DNA of 64,000 nt, from positions 21,440 through 85,439 of the forward strand of contig JALIBN010000026.1 of NCBI GenBank assembly GCA_030576275.1, read 5' to 3'. Below the pieces are notes generated by a model that saw only the letters and a program-made list of their open reading frames with translations, searched no databases and was not told where the DNA came from. The stretch is from Pseudomonadota bacterium (GTDB lineage Bacteria; Pseudomonadota; Gammaproteobacteria; Nitrosococcales; Methylophagaceae). Position 1 is the stretch's first letter. Every line of letters starts with the position of its first letter. Positions 40,815-51,226 of this stretch are shown here, piece after piece. A program made the translations under genes and the position numbers.

Positions 40815-42662
40815 ATGCAGTGGAGAGATGATTTGGGAAATAAACTTACTGATGATTTCGTTGGCTTAATAATGATAGTTGCAGCCTTGCTTGCTATTTT
40901 CATGGTCGTCACCTTTGATACGCTTGATAACTACAACTCGCGAGCAAGTACGATCGATAAGTCCGCTAGAACGATTGTTAGGTTGCTGACCAATATGCCT
41001 ATGGAGCGGTTTATAAAAAACGATGTTTATAGTAATAGCGTATTAGAGCTCTTATCTCGTAATGAACATAATGCCGATTTAGCCTACGTAGCCAAAGTTA
41101 ACTTGTCTGGCGAATCCTTAGCTTCAGTTACAGTAAAAAATATCATCATCCCTGATATGGTCATTGGTTCTTGGCCGAAACAGGGGGTGTCCAAGTACGT
41201 AGCTGAACAAGGATCAAACAAATACATCGAATATCGTGCACCGATAATGTCAGGCAAAGAGTTAGTGGGGTATGAGCGGGTTGGGTACGATAAGCCTAAA
41301 ATCGAACTCCAATTTTCAGATGTATCTTTCTATGCAAAAATGGCGCTACCGGTATTTTTATTGGTACCTGTTTTTTACCTTATGTTCCGGCGAGAAACCC
41401 GTTCCTTAAGGCAGGTGAGTTCTCAAATACTGTCTTTTATGGATGTGCAGAGCGTTAAACTCGACACCGATAGTGATAATAAGGATATTATCGCTAACTT
41501 GCGTCAATTTGTGCTGACAGTGGGTAAGCAGATGGATGCTCTTAAGAATGAGCAAGCCCAAGCACAAGAATCAACATTGATACTAGGCTATCAAAAGAAA
41601 CGCATCGAATCCGTATTACAGTCATTTCCAGATGCGGTTGTGGTCATGGATGAGAATGGTGCTATTACCTACGAGAATGGAAGACTTCAAGCAGTTATGG
41701 GTCTTCAGCCTGAAGGTATTATAGGTTTAATGCCTAATGAGTGGTGTACTGATGAGCAAGTAATCAATTTACTCTCTAGCTACCATAGCAACATCACTTC
41801 CTCAAAGCGAGTGGAAGTGCTGGAGTTTACACCTGAAGCCATTCCAAATAAAACCATATCCGTTAGTGCTTATCCATTATTTTCCCCTACGGGATTAAAT
41901 ACTGTTTTGGGAACCTTAGTGTTGTTTCATGATATTACTAAAAAAGTATTATTAACTAGCAAGCATGAAGACTTTATCAATCATGTTTCTCATGAGATGA
42001 AGTCACCGCTTAATGTTATTCAAATGTGTGCTGAAACGTTATTGGATAATAATGATGACGATAAAGTTGAGCGAACTCAATCACTTAACATGATTATGGA
42101 TGAAGCTGAACGATTGAACATGTTGGTCTCGACCCTACTCAATATTTCAAAAATTGAATCAGGACATCTGACGCTTAATAAACAGCGGGTGAGACTCGGC
42201 GATCTTATTAAAGACACCTTTGAAGATATGGTTAGTACAGCCGAAATAAATCAAGTTAATTTCAAACTTGGATTGCCTAGTACTATAGGTGCTGTATCAA
42301 TAGATAAGGACTTGGTCCGAATTGCGTTAAGAAATTTATTGACTAATGCGCTCAAATACTCTGATATCGGTGGAAATGTCACCCTTCAAGTTGATGACGA
42401 TAGTGATAAGTATGTTCTAAGTGTTATCGATGATGGCATCGGTATAGCTGAAAAAGACCTCTTGCATGTTTTTGATAAGTTTTATCGTGCCGATTCAGAT
42501 AAAGTCAGACAACGAAATGGTCATGGTTTAGGTTTATCATTATCTAAAAATATCATTGAGATGCATCAGGGGAGAATTCTGGTAGAAAGTATACTAGGAC
42601 AAGGTACTACTTTCCGTATTATGCTGCCTAAGCAAGCAGTCTTTATAAATGAGATGGGATAA
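40815..42662 (+). CDS. Membrane sensor histidine kinase with PAS domain (HisKA-HATPase)
   Basis: Two TM segments flanking a periplasmic domain; FPDAVVVMDENGAITYENGRLQAVMGL PAS; HVSHEMKSPLNVI H-box; RIALRNLLTNALKYS N-box; GHGLGLSLSKNI. Confidence 0.93.
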   Translation: MQWRDDLGNKLTDDFVGLIMIVAALLAIFMVVTFDTLDNYNSRASTIDKSARTIVRLLTNMPMERFIKNDVYSNSVLELLSRNEHNADLAYVAKVNLSGESLASVTVKNIIIPDMVIGSWPKQGVSKYVAEQGSNKYIEYRAPIMSGKELVGYERVGYDKPKIELQFSDVSFYAKMALPVFLLVPVFYLMFRRETRSLRQVSSQILSFMDVQSVKLDTDSDNKDIIANLRQFVLTVGKQMDALKNEQAQAQESTLILGYQKKRIESVLQSFPDAVVVMDENGAITYENGRLQAVMGLQPEGIIGLMPNEWCTDEQVINLLSSYHSNITSSKRVEVLEFTPEAIPNKTISVSAYPLFSPTGLNTVLGTLVLFHDITKKVLLTSKHEDFINHVSHEMKSPLNVIQMCAETLLDNNDDDKVERTQSLNMIMDEAERLNMLVSTLLNISKIESGHLTLNKQRVRLGDLIKDTFEDMVSTAEINQVNFKLGLPSTIGAVSIDKDLVRIALRNLLTNALKYSDIGGNVTLQVDDDSDKYVLSVIDDGIGIAEKDLLHVFDKFYRADSDKVRQRNGHGLGLSLSKNIIEMHQGRILVESILGQGTTFRIMLPKQAVFINEMG

Positions 42663-43036
42663 TGACTCAAAGAATATTGATAGTTGATGATGAACCCCAT
42701 GTCATTCACGTACTGAAAACTTTTCTTGAACGCAAGGGCTTTTCTGTTTTCTCGGCGCACAACGGTCAACAGGCTCTAGATGTTTATAAAAAGTCTCAAC
42801 CTCATGTCGTAATCACGGATATACAGATGCCTATTATGAGTGGGCAAGCGCTGTGTGAGCAATTATTACACGACTATACGCATGACACTGCTAAACTAAT
42901 CGTGGTGACATCGCGCACAGATATCGCACTACGGTCTTGGGCCAAGAGCTACCCCATGATTGATTTTATAGAAAAACCCCTGAGCATGAGACGCTTAGTA
43001 TCAAAACTTGACGAATTTTTTGTCTTGGCGGTATAA
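42662..43036 (+). CDS. Stand-alone response regulator receiver domain
   Basis: RILIVDDEPHVIHVLKTFLERKGFSVFSAHNGQQALDVYKKSQPHVVITDIQMPIMSG; about 124 aa with no output domain. Confidence 0.92.
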   Translation: MTQRILIVDDEPHVIHVLKTFLERKGFSVFSAHNGQQALDVYKKSQPHVVITDIQMPIMSGQALCEQLLHDYTHDTAKLIVVTSRTDIALRSWAKSYPMIDFIEKPLSMRRLVSKLDEFFVLAV

Positions 43037-43039
43037 GTT

Positions 43040-45208
43040 ATGCTGGAGATGAAACTTAGTTGTTTAAAATACTATTCGCTAGTTAACCGCGTGTCGGATT
43101 ACCATGTCTACTTAGCTATTCTAGATGTAGGTAGCGGCAAAATTATTGCTCAAGATGATAATATTCAACAACAGTTTGTTGATTTTATAAAGTATATTGA
43201 GCAACCCAATATCGGTTGGACCAGCAAAGAAACCGTACAGGGAAACTACGCAATCTCCCCAGATAGAATGTTAAATCTTACACCGCTCACTATCGGTGTT
43301 GAAGAGCCTCGCTATTGGCTTTGTTCATTGATTTCATCGCCTGATCATACTGAGGTTATTTTGAAAGATGAAATATTACTTCAAACCATAAAAGACGTCG
43401 CTATATTTATACAACATGATTCTGACGCCACCATACTCGCCAGAGGCATGGCCGATGAATTAGCTACGCGCTATGAAGAGCTCAATTTATTATATGGTAT
43501 TGATGTCGACTTCGATTTTTCAGGCAGTGATAGCATCTCCGAAATGTATTACAAGATCATTGAGGACTGTATCGTCTATTTGGGGGTTGATATAGTCTGT
43601 TTATACCTGCCAGATGAAGACGTGTTGGTGGTGAAAAATAACCCTGATATTTCAGCCGGCGATTTGAGTACTGTACTGAATAAATTTCAAGGCTCACTCT
43701 ATTCGCTTATTGCGGAAGATCCAGAAACATACGTAGTTAACAAAGACGAAATTGTAGATTGGACAAATCCTAGGCTCGGGATTGACTATAAATATATCGC
43801 GGTGCCGTTATTTAAATCGATAAAAAGCATGGCGGGCATGCTGGTAATTGCGAATCATGAAACGCAAAATAATTTCACCAATAGTGACAGAAAATTGTGC
43901 GAAGTACTGGGAGCAGAAATATCCAAGTTTATCCAATTACGTCATGATCCTTTAACTGGCTTGCTTAATCGAGTCGGATTAGAACAACAGTTGCGCCAAG
44001 CCATTGCGCAAAATTATGAAAAATCAAAGCGCGGAATGCTACTCTATATAGACATTGATCAGTTCAAGAGTGTAAATGAAGTTTCTGGACACAATGCTGG
44101 TGATATTTTATTAACTCAGTTAGCCTCATTATTACCATATAACATAAGAGCTACTGACTCACTGGCACGGATTGGCGGTGATGATTTTGTAATTATATTA
44201 AACGACTGTCCAGTCAGTAATGGCCTTGCCATAGCAGAAAAAATAATTGAACAGATTAAGTCGTTCCGTTTTGTTTTTCTGGATAAGGTATTTAATATTA
44301 CCGTGAGTATAGGTCTAGTTGTTTTTGGCGATGATGACAAAAATACTGATGATATTATTGGTGCAGCAGAATCGGCCTGTTTTACAGCTAAGGAATTAGG
44401 GCGAAATCAAGTGCGGCTTTATGAAAAAACGGATGTGATTATGACCAAACGTCATGATGACGTCTTATGGGTGGGCAGAATTCATAATGCTATCGAAGAC
44501 AATAGATTTAAACTTTACCGTCAGCGAATCATTTCCATCCAAAATGATACTGTCGAGCTTTCACATTACGAAATCTTGCTAAGGATGATCGATGAAAAGG
44601 GGTCTGTACTTTCACCCTTTACTTTTATTCCTGCTGCAGAGCGATATGAGCAAATGACAAAATTAGATCGGTGGGTGATACTAAAAACACTTGAAACCTT
44701 ATCTTTTCATAATAAGAAAGAAGATGCCGTTGTGCTTCATCTCTCGATTAATTTGTCCGGCCAATCTTTATGTGAAGATGGATTTGCTGAGTTTATAATT
44801 AATAGCATCAATAAATATGAAATCCAGCCGGAATCACTGTGTTTTGAAGTGACTGAAACTGCGGCCATTATCAATTTATCTCATGCACAGAAATTCATGG
44901 CAAAAGTGAAAGCGATTGGTTGTAGCTTCTCCTTAGATGATTTCGGTAGTGGAATGAGTTCTTTTGGTTACTTAAAAAGTCTTCCAGTAGATTATTTGAA
45001 AATTGATGGTCAATTTGTTAAGGGCATGATGTCAGACCCTGTAGATAGAGCTATGGTTGAATCCATTCATCATATAGGTCATGTAATGGGCTTGCAAACG
45101 ATAGCCGAGTTTGTCGAAGATGATGAAATGATCGAACATTTGAGATTAATTGGCATCGACTATGCGCAAGGATACGCATTGGGTAGGCCGGAGCCTTTTG
45201 AGTTATGA
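43040..45208 (+). CDS. GAF-like/GGDEF/EAL c-di-GMP turnover protein
   Basis: DPLTGLLNRVGLEQQL..RIGGDDFVII (GGDDF variant); EAL-like domain YEILLRM..NLSGQSL..FEVTETAAI..LDDFGSGMSSFGYLKSLPVDYLKIDGQFV..QTIAEFVED..GIDYAQGYALGRP. Confidence 0.93.
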   Translation: MLEMKLSCLKYYSLVNRVSDYHVYLAILDVGSGKIIAQDDNIQQQFVDFIKYIEQPNIGWTSKETVQGNYAISPDRMLNLTPLTIGVEEPRYWLCSLISSPDHTEVILKDEILLQTIKDVAIFIQHDSDATILARGMADELATRYEELNLLYGIDVDFDFSGSDSISEMYYKIIEDCIVYLGVDIVCLYLPDEDVLVVKNNPDISAGDLSTVLNKFQGSLYSLIAEDPETYVVNKDEIVDWTNPRLGIDYKYIAVPLFKSIKSMAGMLVIANHETQNNFTNSDRKLCEVLGAEISKFIQLRHDPLTGLLNRVGLEQQLRQAIAQNYEKSKRGMLLYIDIDQFKSVNEVSGHNAGDILLTQLASLLPYNIRATDSLARIGGDDFVIILNDCPVSNGLAIAEKIIEQIKSFRFVFLDKVFNITVSIGLVVFGDDDKNTDDIIGAAESACFTAKELGRNQVRLYEKTDVIMTKRHDDVLWVGRIHNAIEDNRFKLYRQRIISIQNDTVELSHYEILLRMIDEKGSVLSPFTFIPAAERYEQMTKLDRWVILKTLETLSFHNKKEDAVVLHLSINLSGQSLCEDGFAEFIINSINKYEIQPESLCFEVTETAAIINLSHAQKFMAKVKAIGCSFSLDDFGSGMSSFGYLKSLPVDYLKIDGQFVKGMMSDPVDRAMVESIHHIGHVMGLQTIAEFVEDDEMIEHLRLIGIDYAQGYALGRPEPFEL

Positions 45209-45274
45209 AAGTAAATTACATAACAATGAGAGCGCCCTTAATTAACGCTATTCCATACTGGTACGAAGGGTATT

Positions 45275-47329
45275 ATGCTTGACAATCCAGAAATAATTGA
45301 TAAACAGAGGATTGTTTATACTCAGCTAGGTACAGCAAGTTATCTTGCGCCGTTGTCCTCGCTGTCTGACGAGACCATGCAACAGTTATTGCTGCAGAGA
45401 GTTGATGAGTGTATTGCCATTCACGAAATAGAACTCTATATTGATTTCGCTGAAGTACCCTCTGTTAATAGTGGCTCGCTCGAGATCTTGTTGTCATGTT
45501 ATAACAAAATAAAATCTTCTGGTGGTCGGCTGCACTTGATTAATACCAATGCATTGGTTAATGAAGTGTTATTTATGACGGGTTTAAACCATTACATTGA
45601 TGTTGTGGGCAATGACAAACACACTCCTAAACCGCATCTAGGTCAACCCCGCCAACGTCTAGGTGATATGTTAATTGCTGAAGGCTTATTAACTAAGAGT
45701 CAGCTTGAAAATGTGATGACTATGCAGTTAACAACCGGCAAGCGTTTGGGTGCATTGGTTGTTGAAAAGGGCTGGGTATCTGAAAATGATCTGAATCAGC
45801 TTATCAGTCTGCAGCTGGGTATTCATTTTGTTCAGTTGCGGACTGGCATGTTTGATCTTGGGATTCAAAAAATTATTCCGCTTTCTATATTGCAGCGGCT
45901 AAAAATAGTACCGTTATTCAAATTGCAAGGGCAACTTTTTATTGCGACTAGTGAACCGCTGGCCATACCGATTCTTGATGAAATCTATGACCGTACAGGT
46001 TTAAATGTTACGCCAGTTTTAGCTAGTTCTCTGGAAATTTTAGCGCATCTGCAAGCAAATCATCAAGATGATTACGATCTCACATCTTACTTAACGGATA
46101 TGAATAGTGATCTGGAAGTGGTTGAGACCTATGTCAATGATGATTTTAATCTCGTTGATGAAATGGCATCGGGCAGCCCCATTATCAATCTTGTTAATGC
46201 GATTATTCAGCGTGCCATTCGAGATGGTGTCAGTGATGTTCATATCGAACCCTCAAGGACAAAAAGTCGGGTTCGTTTTCGCATTGACGGCATATTATAC
46301 GAATTTATGAGTCAACCGGCAGAAATGCATCCTGCCATTGTGTCACGTCTAAAAGTGATGGCGAATCTCGATATTGCTGAAAGGCGATTACCACAAGATG
46401 GCCGGGTGCAAGTCAATACCCAAGGGCGTTCGATTGATTTACGTTTTAGTTCTTTGCCAGGTATATTTGGCGAAAAAGTCGTTATGCGTGTATTGGATAA
46501 AAATCAAAACATGCTCAATCTTGATAAACTTGACTTAGATGCTAATAACCTTGCGTCTCTGAAAAAATTACTAAGTAATAATCATGGTTTGATTTTAGCT
46601 ACAGGGCCAACAGGTAGTGGTAAAACAACCACTTTATACGCGGCACTTAATCATCTCAATAGTATTGAAAAAAGTATTGTTACCATCGAGGATCCTGTTG
46701 AATATCAGCTCGACATCATTAATCAAAATCAAGTTAATGATAAAATAGGACTAAGTTTTCCCACCGTGTTGCGGCATGTGCTGCGACAAGATCCCGACAT
46801 AATCATGGTTGGTGAAATACGTGACAGACAAACGGCTGAGATTGCCGTTCAAGCTGCGTTAACGGGCCATTTGGTCTTATCAACCCTGCATACAAATGAA
46901 AGTGTCGGCGCTATCACCCGTTTGGTGGAAATGGGCATTGAACCGTATCTGTTGTCATCGGCACTTATTGGTGTAGTGGCGCAGCGCTTGATTCGTACAA
47001 TTTGTCCTGATTGTAAAACCAGCTATACAGCCCCATCAGCAATAATTGAACAGTTTGGTTGGCAAGATAAAGCGCCAGTTCGTTTAAGCTACGGTCGTGG
47101 CTGTTCTAATTGTTATGACTCGGGCTATAAAGGCCGTATGGCGGTTCATGAAATTCTAATATGTAATGCCGAATTACAGCGATTAATGACCACTAATCCA
47201 AGTCGTGATCAACTTGCTGACTACATGAAGGAAGCAAAAGTAAGATCATTGTTTGATGATGGTTTAGAGCGTGTGTTAGCTGGCAAAACGACACTGGATG
47301 AAGTATCTCGTGTGTTGTTGGCTGAATAG
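45275..47329 (+). CDS. GspE/PilB/MshE-type assembly ATPase with N-terminal STAS-like domain and MshEN c-di-GMP-binding domain
   Basis: N-term IELYIDFAEVPSVNSGSLEILLSCYNKIKSSGGRLHLINTNALVNEVLFMTGLNHYIDVV (STAS-like); RLGDMLIAEGLLTKSQLENVMTMQ-LTTGK-RLGALVVEKGWVSENDLNQLISLQ (MshEN motif pair); ATGPTGSGKTTTLYAAL Walker A; zinc CxxC...CxxC. Confidence 0.92.
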   Translation: MLDNPEIIDKQRIVYTQLGTASYLAPLSSLSDETMQQLLLQRVDECIAIHEIELYIDFAEVPSVNSGSLEILLSCYNKIKSSGGRLHLINTNALVNEVLFMTGLNHYIDVVGNDKHTPKPHLGQPRQRLGDMLIAEGLLTKSQLENVMTMQLTTGKRLGALVVEKGWVSENDLNQLISLQLGIHFVQLRTGMFDLGIQKIIPLSILQRLKIVPLFKLQGQLFIATSEPLAIPILDEIYDRTGLNVTPVLASSLEILAHLQANHQDDYDLTSYLTDMNSDLEVVETYVNDDFNLVDEMASGSPIINLVNAIIQRAIRDGVSDVHIEPSRTKSRVRFRIDGILYEFMSQPAEMHPAIVSRLKVMANLDIAERRLPQDGRVQVNTQGRSIDLRFSSLPGIFGEKVVMRVLDKNQNMLNLDKLDLDANNLASLKKLLSNNHGLILATGPTGSGKTTTLYAALNHLNSIEKSIVTIEDPVEYQLDIINQNQVNDKIGLSFPTVLRHVLRQDPDIIMVGEIRDRQTAEIAVQAALTGHLVLSTLHTNESVGAITRLVEMGIEPYLLSSALIGVVAQRLIRTICPDCKTSYTAPSAIIEQFGWQDKAPVRLSYGRGCSNCYDSGYKGRMAVHEILICNAELQRLMTTNPSRDQLADYMKEAKVRSLFDDGLERVLAGKTTLDEVSRVLLAE

Positions 47330-47338
47330 GTTAGCGTT

Positions 47339-48454
47339 ATGGCGATTGAATTTTCCACACCAAAAAATACTGACAAATTAGCTGCCACGCCAAAAGCTTA
47401 TTCATTGTTTGGCCCGAAAGGTGTTGGTAAGCTAGATGTAATGCTGTTCACTGAGCAACTTTCGTTAATGCTTGAAACAGGTAATGACCTGAACAGTAGT
47501 TTGCTCGCTTTAGCGGAGCAAAATGAAAATATTGCTATGAAAACGGTAGTACTTTCTATTGCTAACTCAATCCAAGAAGGCAATACTTTTGCGCAAAGTT
47601 TGGCTGAACACCCCAAGGTATTTCCCTTAACTTATGTGAGCTTAGTACGCGCCAGTGAAGCGGGCGGTTATTTGCATCGAGTATTGGAACATATCTATGA
47701 AATGGACAAGCAACAACAAGAGCTACTTAATACACTAAAGTCCGCCTTCACCTATCCGGCATTTTTACTTTTTTTCTCGTTTTCGGTTGTGGTGTTTGTT
47801 CTGCTGGTAGTGTTTCCTAAATTCAAAGAAATGTTTGTCAATATAGCAGACCAATTGCCTGCCACGACCAAGGTTCTGATGTGGTCTAGCGATATGATGC
47901 TCACTTATTGGTGGGCGATTATTCCTATTTGTATCGCGATATTATCAAGTATTGTGTTCTGGCTTCGTAGCGAACATGGTACGTTATTACTTGATCACTT
48001 TAAGTTAACATTTCCGTTGATACGTGATGTGTTTCAACAAGCCTATTTGATCCAGTGCCTACGTATTCTTGGCCTGTCACTTCAAAATGGTATGCAACTC
48101 ATTGATGCCATCGAATCCGCCAAAGGCGTGGTTAATAATCGTATCTTTACTGAGTTTTTAGACAATTTAAGAGAAAACGTGATTGAAGGACGCACGTTCT
48201 CCAGTGGATTCATCGATGTTGATTTTATTCCCCCCATGCTTAAACAAATGATTGCTACGGGGGAATCAACTGGCAACTTGCCATTAGTAATGAATCGTGT
48301 GGCACAGCAATATCAAAAAGACTTAGCCAATAAGTTAAATACCTTATCTAAAGCCATTGAGCCCATTATGTTGATTGTTATGGGGGTGGTGGTTGGGGTG
48401 TTGGTGAGTTCGTTGATTCTGCCGATCTTCAAATTATCGCGCGCGGTTCATTAA
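47339..48454 (+). CDS. Type II secretion/type IV pilus inner-membrane platform protein (GspF/PilC-like)
   Basis: MLFTEQLSLMLETGNDLNSSLLALAEQ; VSLVRASEAGGYLHRVLEHIYEMDKQQQELLNTLKSAFTYPAFLL; MIATGESTGNLPLVM. Confidence 0.94.
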   Translation: MAIEFSTPKNTDKLAATPKAYSLFGPKGVGKLDVMLFTEQLSLMLETGNDLNSSLLALAEQNENIAMKTVVLSIANSIQEGNTFAQSLAEHPKVFPLTYVSLVRASEAGGYLHRVLEHIYEMDKQQQELLNTLKSAFTYPAFLLFFSFSVVVFVLLVVFPKFKEMFVNIADQLPATTKVLMWSSDMMLTYWWAIIPICIAILSSIVFWLRSEHGTLLLDHFKLTFPLIRDVFQQAYLIQCLRILGLSLQNGMQLIDAIESAKGVVNNRIFTEFLDNLRENVIEGRTFSSGFIDVDFIPPMLKQMIATGESTGNLPLVMNRVAQQYQKDLANKLNTLSKAIEPIMLIVMGVVVGVLVSSLILPIFKLSRAVH

Positions 48455-48467
48455 TGTGATTTAAAGA

Positions 48468-48574
48468 AAGGTTGAGTGGGATTTTATAGCAAGGTGAAGT
48501 AGGTGTTTTAGTAAAATCAAGAAGGTTGAGTAGGATTTTATAGCAAGGTGAAGTAGGTGTTTTAGTAAAATCAA
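48468..48574. repeat. Direct repeat, 2 x 53 bp (54-bp period, one mismatch)
   Basis: aaggttgagt[g/a]ggattttatagcaaggtgaagtaggtgttttagtaaaatcaa at 48468-48520 and 48522-48574. Confidence 0.95.
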
Positions 48575-48600
48575 TAGTGACAAAGTATCTAAATATAATT

Positions 48601-48656
48601 TAGATATATAATTTAGATATATAATTTAGATATATAATTTAGATATATAATTTAGA
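48601..48656. repeat. 14-bp VNTR (tagatatataattt) x4 upstream of the major pilin gene
   Basis: Four perfect copies; each contains TATAAT, with another TATAAT at 48594-48599. Confidence 0.95.
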
Positions 48657-48690
48657 TTCAAATTAATTTTATTCGTTAAATGGGAAATAT

Positions 48691-49230
48691 ATGATGATCA
48701 GAAATATTCAAAAAGGGTTCACACTAGTTGAATTGTTAATCGTTGTTATTATCTTGGCAATTTTAGCTGCCATCGTAGTACCACAGTTTGCAAATACAAC
48801 AATCGACGCTAAAGAGGCGTCACTAGATACAACATTGTCAAATATACGCAGTGTATTGGACTTATATTATCAACAGCACAATAACCAGTATCCGGGAGCT
48901 ATTAATCAAACATCAGGTGCTGCAACTTCTACTGATGTTGATAGGCTTGCAGCCCTGAAAGCTCAGCTAACGCAATATACTGATGCTACAGGTATTACTT
49001 CTACTACAAAGGATGGCACATATAGATATGGTCCTTACTTTAAAGTCACTGATTTCCCAGCAAACCCGATTACATCTAGCAGAGATATAGTCTTTACAAG
49101 CCTTGGTTCATTATCGCTGACTACATCTGACGTAGGTGCTGGTTGGAAATATGATGTGCTTAGCGGCGTACTTATAGCTAATGATGCTAACACTGATTCA
49201 GGTGGTGTTCGTACGTACGCCGATCATTGA
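48691..49230 (+). CDS. Major pilin/pseudopilin, GspG/PilA-like
   Basis: Type III signal peptide KGFTLVELLIVVIILAILAAIVVPQF. Confidence 0.9.
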   Translation: MMIRNIQKGFTLVELLIVVIILAILAAIVVPQFANTTIDAKEASLDTTLSNIRSVLDLYYQQHNNQYPGAINQTSGAATSTDVDRLAALKAQLTQYTDATGITSTTKDGTYRYGPYFKVTDFPANPITSSRDIVFTSLGSLSLTTSDVGAGWKYDVLSGVLIANDANTDSGGVRTYADH

Positions 49231-49260
49231 TAATAGTTAAACGCTCCGCTAGATTCTAAG

Positions 49261-49812
49261 GTGAATTTTGATCATCGTAAGCATGGTTTTTCGCTAATAG
49301 AGTTGATCATTGTAATAAGTATTTTGGGCATTGTTGCAGCTGTAGCAATGCCCAATATGTTTTTAGGTAATAGTCAAAAACTGGATGTAGCTTCAACAGA
49401 ACTTGCCGATGCAATTCGCTTTGCCCGTGCCGAAGCAATACGTACCGGAACACCACACGGTGTTTGGTATTTCCCTTTTCCCACCAAACTCTCTGTTTAC
49501 CGGCTTGTTTATGTGGGAGGGGCTGCCATCCCTACTTATGATGTGCGCCATCCTGTTGATAAAAAACTCTATAGCCTAGATTATTCAAATAATGGTAACC
49601 AAGCCCCCGTAAAAATTGGTGTCGTTACCCTGAATTATGGTGGTTCAGCTATTAATAGAGAATACATTTCATTTGATGACCATGGCGTACCAAATTATTC
49701 TAATGGAGAGACTTATCAAATGCTCGATAACGCGTCTATCGTGCTTGTATACGCAGGTCAGTCAAGTATGGTAAGTATTGCGCCGATGACGGGCAGGGTG
49801 GTGGTGCAATGA
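49261..49812 (+). CDS. Minor pseudopilin, GspH/FimT-like (GTG start)
   Basis: HGFSLIELIIVISILGIVAAVAMPNM; LADAIRFARAEAIRTGTPHGV. Confidence 0.88.
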   Translation: MNFDHRKHGFSLIELIIVISILGIVAAVAMPNMFLGNSQKLDVASTELADAIRFARAEAIRTGTPHGVWYFPFPTKLSVYRLVYVGGAAIPTYDVRHPVDKKLYSLDYSNNGNQAPVKIGVVTLNYGGSAINREYISFDDHGVPNYSNGETYQMLDNASIVLVYAGQSSMVSIAPMTGRVVVQ

Positions 49813-50267
49813 TTCTCCGCACTTGGCATTCTCGGTACTACGGCTTTTCTTATATTGAAGTATTGATTGCCATATTTATCTTAGCCGTTGCAATTGTACC
49901 GGCAATGGAAGCGCTGCAAACGTCTATTCAAGGTGCAGGCGTTCAAGAATCACTTATAGTGCAACATTATACCGTTAACGCCCGAATGGAAACGATGTTG
50001 GCAGAATCGTATAGTTCGTTACTCGCCGGAGCTAAGGTGGCGACTGATGCCTCTACTCCCACCAGTTTTTCAGATAGTGCCGGTGGAGCTGAACGGGTGG
50101 TGGTTTTGTTAGCTTTATATGATGCTGATGCCTTTCCATTTACTATTTCTGATCCTAACAATGATGCGGATAATGATATCTATACTGGTGATACATCAGA
50201 TCTACTGTGGCTTCGAGTTGAAATTGAAAATACAGCCGTTGCCGTCGAAAGTTTGAAATACCGTTGA
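49809..50267 (+). CDS. Minor pseudopilin, GspI/PilV-like
   Basis: YYGFSYIEVLIAIFILAVAIVPAMEALQTSIQGA. Confidence 0.82.
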   Translation: MILRTWHSRYYGFSYIEVLIAIFILAVAIVPAMEALQTSIQGAGVQESLIVQHYTVNARMETMLAESYSSLLAGAKVATDASTPTSFSDSAGGAERVVVLLALYDADAFPFTISDPNNDADNDIYTGDTSDLLWLRVEIENTAVAVESLKYR

Positions 50268-51226
50268 ATCAGCTATCAATGTCAAAATGTCAACAAGGCG
50301 TTACCATGGTCGAATTATTAATTGTGGTCGTTATTTCAGTTATATTGATGGCTGGTATGCAATCTCTTATCGGAACTACACTCAAGATTGAAGCCGATAT
50401 GAGTGAACGTAACGATAGTCTGCAACAAGCTCGTTTTGCGATGCAAACAATGGTTGTCGCGGTGTCGGGGACGCAGAGATTATTGATCCCCTTAGCTGAA
50501 AATCCCTCGACACCTTGGAGTGAATCAGTGCGTGATGTTTTGGCTGTGACCTTAGGTCCTCAAATAGATCGTAACCAAGATGGTTGGGCAGATGCCAATA
50601 ATGATAAGGATTATCTGGATATTAATAATAATGGCGCTCGTGATGTAGGAGAACCTGAGCGGATAAATGAAGACCTAGATGATGACAATACTAATGATGG
50701 CAGACCTGGGATTATTAATATTGATGATGATGGTGATGGCCTTATTGACGAGGGTTCATCCAACGATGACGATGAAGATGACCAGCAAAATGAGGATCCA
50801 CAAGACGGTATTGATAATGATGGTGATGGCAGTATTGATGAGGATGCCTCTAATGATTTATCTAATGATAGGATGCCAGGTAACTTAGGTGTCGATGATG
50901 ATTTAGATGGATTAATCGACGAGGGAGGATCATGGAGGCGAGCAGATGATGATGAAGATAGTGCCAGAGATGAAGACTGGCTAGATCCTATCGTATTTTA
51001 CCTCAATGGCACGACGCTGATGCAACGTATTCCCAATATTGATCCGGCTGATGGTGCTGATTATTCTGAATATCCGATTGCCGAAAATGTCACACAATTA
51101 CAAATCGAACGTTTACTGGGCAATGATGGTGTGACGGTGTTGGTGGATATTACACTGCAAATCAGCCCATCAACTATCGAAGCAATGCTGTTCAATACAC
51201 GCGTGCGAGTAGGCGCTCGTCTATGA
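50264..51226 (+). CDS. Minor pseudopilin, GspJ/PilW-like, with Asp-rich Ca-binding-type repeats
   Basis: QGVTMVELLIVVVISVILMAGMQSLIG prepilin motif; DRNQDGWADANNDKD..NIDDDGDGLIDEG..GIDNDGDGSIDED..GVDDDLDGLIDEG. Start TTG 50264 or ATG 50279. Confidence 0.87.
   Translation: MNQLSMSKCQQGVTMVELLIVVVISVILMAGMQSLIGTTLKIEADMSERNDSLQQARFAMQTMVVAVSGTQRLLIPLAENPSTPWSESVRDVLAVTLGPQIDRNQDGWADANNDKDYLDINNNGARDVGEPERINEDLDDDNTNDGRPGIINIDDDGDGLIDEGSSNDDDEDDQQNEDPQDGIDNDGDGSIDEDASNDLSNDRMPGNLGVDDDLDGLIDEGGSWRRADDDEDSARDEDWLDPIVFYLNGTTLMQRIPNIDPADGADYSEYPIAENVTQLQIERLLGNDGVTVLVDITLQISPSTIEAMLFNTRVRVGARL

Follow-up and report, generated by a model that had tools for sequence, protein, structure and literature searches.

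A STAS domain fused to the assembly ATPase of a type IV filament gene cluster in a member of the Methylophagaceae

Does an assembly ATPase encoded beside a set of pilin genes carry a genuine STAS domain ahead of its MshEN and motor domains, and what could such a domain do on a filament motor? The gene lies in a 64,000-nucleotide stretch of DNA (the window; contig JALIBN010000026.1 of assembly GCA_030576275.1) from a gammaproteobacterium of the Methylophagaceae. A preliminary description of the sequence had read the first ~115 residues as STAS-like and proposed that they could couple the motor to a partner-switch or phosphorylation input, perhaps from the adjacent kinase and receiver.

Domain architecture of the motor

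The protein and its parts are placed as follows, in window coordinates:

45275..47329, plus strand, STAS-MshEN-T2SSE assembly ATPase of 684 residues (open reading frame, Pfam, NCBIfam)
45311..45607, plus strand, STAS domain, residues about 13-111 (Pfam STAS, predicted fold, PDB matches)
45470..45472, plus strand, codon of Ser66, at the phospho-acceptor position of SpoIIAA (alignment to 1th8_B; Ser in 21/23 homologs)
45656..45727, plus strand, MshEN c-di-GMP motif I, residues 128-151, RLGDMLIAEGLLTKSQLENVMTMQ (NF053729; consensus PMC5013675)
45743..45814, plus strand, MshEN c-di-GMP motif II, residues 157-180, RLGALVVEKGWVSENDLNQLISLQ (NF053729; consensus PMC5013675)
45863..46060, plus strand, MshEN domain by PF05157, residues 197-262 (Pfam)
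46169..47311, plus strand, T2SSE motor domain, residues 299-679 (Pfam, 449.9 bits)

Based on Pfam, the domains follow in the order STAS, MshEN, and T2SSE. In the whole protein, the STAS family (PF01740) matched residues 39 to 109 with 31.2 bits (E = 1.9e-7); the N terminus alone scored 34.0 bits (E = 2.6e-8). Both scores lie above the cutoff of 22.6 bits. The NCBIfam profile ant_ant_sig scored 38.8 bits, below its cutoff of 53.45. A phmmer search of the PDB placed TM1081 first (E = 3.6e-4) and SpoIIAA-type proteins next. For residues 13 to 111, AlphaFold2 predicted a β-β-α-β-α-β-α-β fold from a two-sequence alignment (pLDDT 75, pTM 0.70). The top PDB matches of this model in Foldseek were the STAS proteins 3f43, 1th8, and 6m36, with TM scores to SpoIIAA, RsbV, and TM1081 of about 0.64 to 0.77 under either normalization. 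We conclude that the N terminus has a predicted STAS fold, as first proposed, extending over about residues 13 to 111; a chance match is ruled out by the predicted fold together with the conservation described below. A model of STAS and MshEN together was poor (pLDDT 56) yet matched both STAS and MshEN structures, and because of its low confidence the arrangement of the domains cannot be read from it.

The possibility that the first ATG is wrong had been raised at the outset. Homologs carry the same STAS domain in frame, aligning from about residue 13, so the annotated start is right; an AAGGG-like ribosome-binding stretch also lies close upstream of the ATG at 45275.

A linker separates the STAS domain from the MshEN motifs, which begin at residue 128. 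The NCBIfam c-di-GMP motif NF053729 matched residues 128 to 180 with 56.6 bits (cutoff, 38), covering two RLGxx..Q motifs with a 5-residue linker between them. These match the published consensus (PMC5013675), and c-di-GMP binding is predicted. The Walker A motif of the translated motor reads GPTGSGKT, and the NCBIfam equivalogs for PilB (TIGR02538; 558.6) and GspE (TIGR02533; 580) both scored below their cutoffs (675.65 and 630.25, respectively).

Genes around the motor

Three signaling genes precede the motor gene:

40815..42662, plus strand, histidine kinase with PAS, HisKA, and HATPase_c domains (Pfam; conserved in the cluster)
42662..43036, plus strand, single-domain receiver (Pfam; phospho-acceptor Asp, Thr, and Lys conserved in 15 loci)
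43040..45208, plus strand, GAF-GGDEF-EAL protein (Pfam; conserved in the cluster)

Filament genes follow it:

47339..48454, plus strand, T2SSF/PilC platform protein (Pfam)
48691..49230, plus strand, probable major pilin, GspG-like (NCBIfam)
49261..49812, plus strand, minor pilin, GspH-like
49809..50267, plus strand, minor pilin, PilV/GspI-like
50264..51226, plus strand, minor pilin with a prepilin methylation motif and an Asp-rich insert
51223..52224, plus strand, probable tip pilin with a DNRLRE domain (homologs carry CBM96 and LamG)
52598..53788, plus strand, GGDEF protein within the cluster
53785..54912, plus strand, PilM
54905..55561, plus strand, PilN
55558..56118, plus strand, PilO
56115..56504, plus strand, PilP position, without a Pfam match (position shared by homologs in other loci)
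56455..57906, plus strand, secretin

The secretin scored 136.7 against MshL (cutoff, 250) and 196 against PilQ (cutoff, 284). The long Asp-rich insert of the minor pilin at 50264-51226 resembles calcium-binding repeats. Past the cluster, a beta-CASP protein is encoded at 58613-60004, followed at 60041-61865 by genes for beta- and epsilon-type ATP synthase subunits, possibly a second ATP synthase operon.

Distribution and descent of the fusion

Whether the STAS-MshEN-T2SSE architecture occurs elsewhere was a question left by the preliminary description. It recurs: we collected 23 STAS-ATPases, almost all of them gammaproteobacterial, with one from a different class of proteobacteria. A first scan of contigs with the STAS part alone as the query gave no match. 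On a contig of a Woeseia metagenome-assembled genome, a protein that is 53% identical over residues 13 to 680 has the same architecture, and the matching platform and pilin genes come after it. The STAS domain of this Woeseia protein matched 14 of 387 Gammaproteobacteria genomes, a lower bound, as the query missed the divergent member in genome G261; the matches lie in open frames of 680 to 786 residues, plus one of 405 residues that ends at a contig end. A phylum-wide profile search added one further STAS-motor (G570, the other proteobacterial class).

Several candidate matches were set aside. Among near-threshold matches that looked like stand-alone STAS proteins, L081/L086 was a piece of the same fusion cut off at a contig end, and L083 was an ordinary STAS protein beside a phosphatase. 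A Thiodictyon plasmid match (H1) was an ordinary stand-alone STAS protein, and an Aeromonas match that aligned from residue 62 (H11) was a motor without STAS.

The platform protein PilC served as a query that does not select for STAS. It listed 15 places with at least 47% identity, then one at 37%, and then others at 33% or less, a sharp gap. The place at 37% (G261) holds a divergent, STAS-bearing motor with a kinase, receiver, and GGDEF-EAL protein. In one genome with a matching PilC (G288), the contig stops short of the motor; where the motor was on the contig, this search found no close relative with a STAS-less motor. No STAS-motor was present in the other 62 genomes of the window's own order. 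The cluster is thus patchy across genomes, and it may have been transferred horizontally. One genome (G341) has two copies (L033 and L035).

In a small T2SSE tree of 21 STAS-motors and nine reference motors, all 21 STAS-motors fell in one clade (support, 0.914), which is consistent with their origin in a single fusion event. A functionless STAS remnant carried along after one ancestral fusion would fit the low identity of this domain to the window protein (25 to 36% among homologs, against 61 to 74% for the motor domain). We nevertheless consider such a remnant highly improbable: across the 23 divergent homologs, G19, L72, and G84 are invariant and Asp57, Val61, Ser66, and Thr102 are near-invariant, and among close relatives with the motor on the contig, the PilC search returned none that had shed the domain.

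The gene neighborhood is conserved with the fusion. Downstream of the motor, other loci encode PilC, pilins, a tip-like pilin, PilM, PilN, PilO, and a secretin. Among loci with upstream sequence, a single-domain receiver lies beside the motor gene in 20 of 21 and a GGDEF-EAL protein lies near it in 19 of 21; a histidine kinase is near the motor in 19 of 20. The His and Asn residues of the kinase are conserved. The EAL catalytic motifs are intact in all 14 aligned GGDEF-EAL proteins, and degeneracy is common at the GGDEF active site (GGDDF in the window protein at 43040..45208). Several homologs (L031, L032, L033, and L039) have a degenerate MshEN motif I, so c-di-GMP binding by the motor may not be universal across the homologs. 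The Woeseia-like motor at L031 (7939-9966) has kept motif II and is missing motif I, which could be a real loss or an assembly error.

The tip-like pilins range from 333 to at least 1,678 residues between genomes (51223-52224 in the window; L031, 1-4110; L032, 834-3392; L033, 11671-16707; L034, 15997-18348) and bear DNRLRE/CBM96 and LamG-type lectin domains. This pattern suggests carbohydrate-binding tips with exchangeable ends.

Position 66 and partner switching

The NSGSL stretch of the window protein aligns with DSSGL of SpoIIAA (1th8_B), which places Ser66 at the phospho-acceptor position, at the start of helix 2. The preliminary description had noted that the SSG core is altered and had left acceptor status uncertain. 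The alteration is real, in that the D-S/T-S/A-G core is absent, being NSGSL here and mostly NSxAL in homologs; the acceptor serine itself is retained. Position 66 is Ser in 21 of the 23 homologs, Gly in one, and Asn in one, and it ranks 8th of 101 STAS columns by conservation; position 67 ranks 99th and is near-random. At position 65, where SpoIIAA has Asp, 17 of the 23 have Asn, and the Ser-Gly that follows the acceptor in SpoIIAA is lost. Conservation at position 66 may be structural, since Ser, Asn, and Gly are all good helix N-caps. Phosphorylation of Ser66 is possible, and the N-cap explanation is equally so.

SpoIIAA, RsbV, and TM1081 share the fold and the acceptor serine position with the window STAS domain. 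They are stand-alone proteins, whereas the window domain is fused to a motor, has NSxAL in place of DSSG, and comes from a genome in which no SpoIIE was found. The working partners of SpoIIAA and RsbV are RsbW/SpoIIAB kinases and PP2C phosphatases. The window's own genome, listed as 99.98% complete, gave no match to SpoIIE-family phosphatases. Its HATPase_c_2 matches lie only in frames of 429 to 1,143 residues, two of which proved on inspection to be membrane histidine kinases, and no small RsbW-type kinase was among them. With no SpoIIE in a near-complete genome and no RsbW-sized kinase among the matches, we rejected a classical SpoIIE/RsbW partner switch, which is unlikely for the STAS-motor. 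The input first proposed thus fares unevenly: its classical partner-switch form falls away, and the linkage to a kinase and receiver is conserved across lineages.

A phospho-switch at Ser66 could also be operated by a Ser/Thr kinase, for example, a moonlighting HATPase or a Hanks-type kinase. The alignment with the SpoIIAA acceptor and the serine in 21 of 23 homologs would suit this idea. The Asn that replaces the preceding Asp, the lost Ser-Gly, the missing SpoIIE, and the size and type of the HATPase_c_2 frames weigh against it, and we regard it as improbable.

Possible roles of the STAS domain

The reading we favor, to which we give about an even chance, is that the protein is the extension ATPase of a type IV filament system whose STAS domain docks, most likely, with the phosphorylated receiver, c-di-GMP being a second condition. 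The STAS domain would act as a protein-docking module through its helical face, at the start of helix 2 and Ser66, in the way that MlaB sits on MlaF. MlaB is a STAS protein that binds and regulates the MlaF ATPase by its helical face, with Thr52, the equivalent of Ser66, at the center of the interface (PMC7367683). We favor the receiver as this partner, since no other neighbor is as constant, and once phosphorylated it would recruit or gate the motor. Binding of c-di-GMP to MshEN would set the second condition, with the neighboring EAL protein as a local sink. The filament probably serves in attachment, with a carbohydrate-binding minor pilin at its end.

Two loci, each a single case, bear on this question. 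At L039, the kinase and receiver lie directly upstream of the motor and the GGDEF-EAL protein is missing, which points to the motor as the target of the receiver. At L038, with no kinase, receiver, or GGDEF-EAL protein nearby, Ser66 has been lost as well (Asn), a further point in favor of docking. The STAS domain itself is kept at L038, which fits a purely structural, MlaB-like role, in which STAS packs on the motor or on PilM/PilC, stabilizes the hexamer or its recruitment, and takes no phospho-input; the target of the kinase and receiver would then be the GGDEF-EAL protein or transcription. MlaB itself stabilizes and activates MlaF, phosphorylation not having been demonstrated (PMC7367683), and position 66 varies among N-cap residues only. 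However, other PilB/GspE motors assemble without STAS, and a structural role leaves the near-constant receiver linkage and L039 unexplained. We rate it as possible but less probable than receiver docking. Receiver docking has its own difficulties: the receiver may instead have the GGDEF-EAL protein or something else as its target, and one locus (L036) has Gly at position 66 though its kinase, receiver, and EAL protein are kept.

More tentatively, the cluster may represent an undescribed type IV filament subtype, with a motor that works as an AND gate (receiver phosphate through STAS, c-di-GMP through MshEN), its own kinase and c-di-GMP enzyme, and a carbohydrate-binding tip.

Relation to known systems

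The closest comparison for the MshEN portion is MshE of the MSHA pilus of Vibrio cholerae, which likewise has tandem 24-residue motifs with a 5-residue linker before T2SSE (PMC5013675). MshE begins at MshEN, with no STAS domain in its solved N terminus (5htl), unlike the window motor. The window cluster is a single locus, as is MSH (PMC6668835). In the MSH model mshM is mandatory; from 40815 to 57906, no MshM-like gene was noticed. The window motor belongs to the same family as the type IVa pilus ATPase PilB and the type II secretion ATPase GspE (best PDB matches, 5zfr, 6olj, and 4pht). Matches to this family begin no earlier than about residue 121, which leaves the STAS domain as an addition. 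MlaB differs in being a separate subunit on an ABC ATPase and in being without strand 5, whereas the window STAS domain is fused and its model has a strand at residues 108 to 111. In Xanthomonas, c-di-GMP and two-component input converge on the extension motor through FimX-PilZ-PilB and PdeK-PdeR (PMC11656802), as proposed here, but those inputs come through separate proteins rather than an extra fused domain.

The motor family, MshEN, and STAS are each known, and what appears new is the fusion of STAS to a PilB/GspE-type motor. We found no described precedent for a STAS-bearing PilB or GspE in the literature searched, which covers few subscription journals, in agreement with the preliminary description. 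A survey of type IV filaments leaves many "generic" systems unassigned (PMC6668835). The fusion marks a filament subtype that current profiles place between PilB, GspE, and MshE.

How quickly signals reach the motor of pilus extension is poorly understood, and the known inputs are mostly separate proteins or c-di-GMP. A STAS-fused motor beside one conserved receiver offers a compact test case for direct control of a pilus by a phospho-signal, and the idea drawn from MlaB, in which a STAS domain acts on an ATPase, would then reach a second ATPase superfamily.
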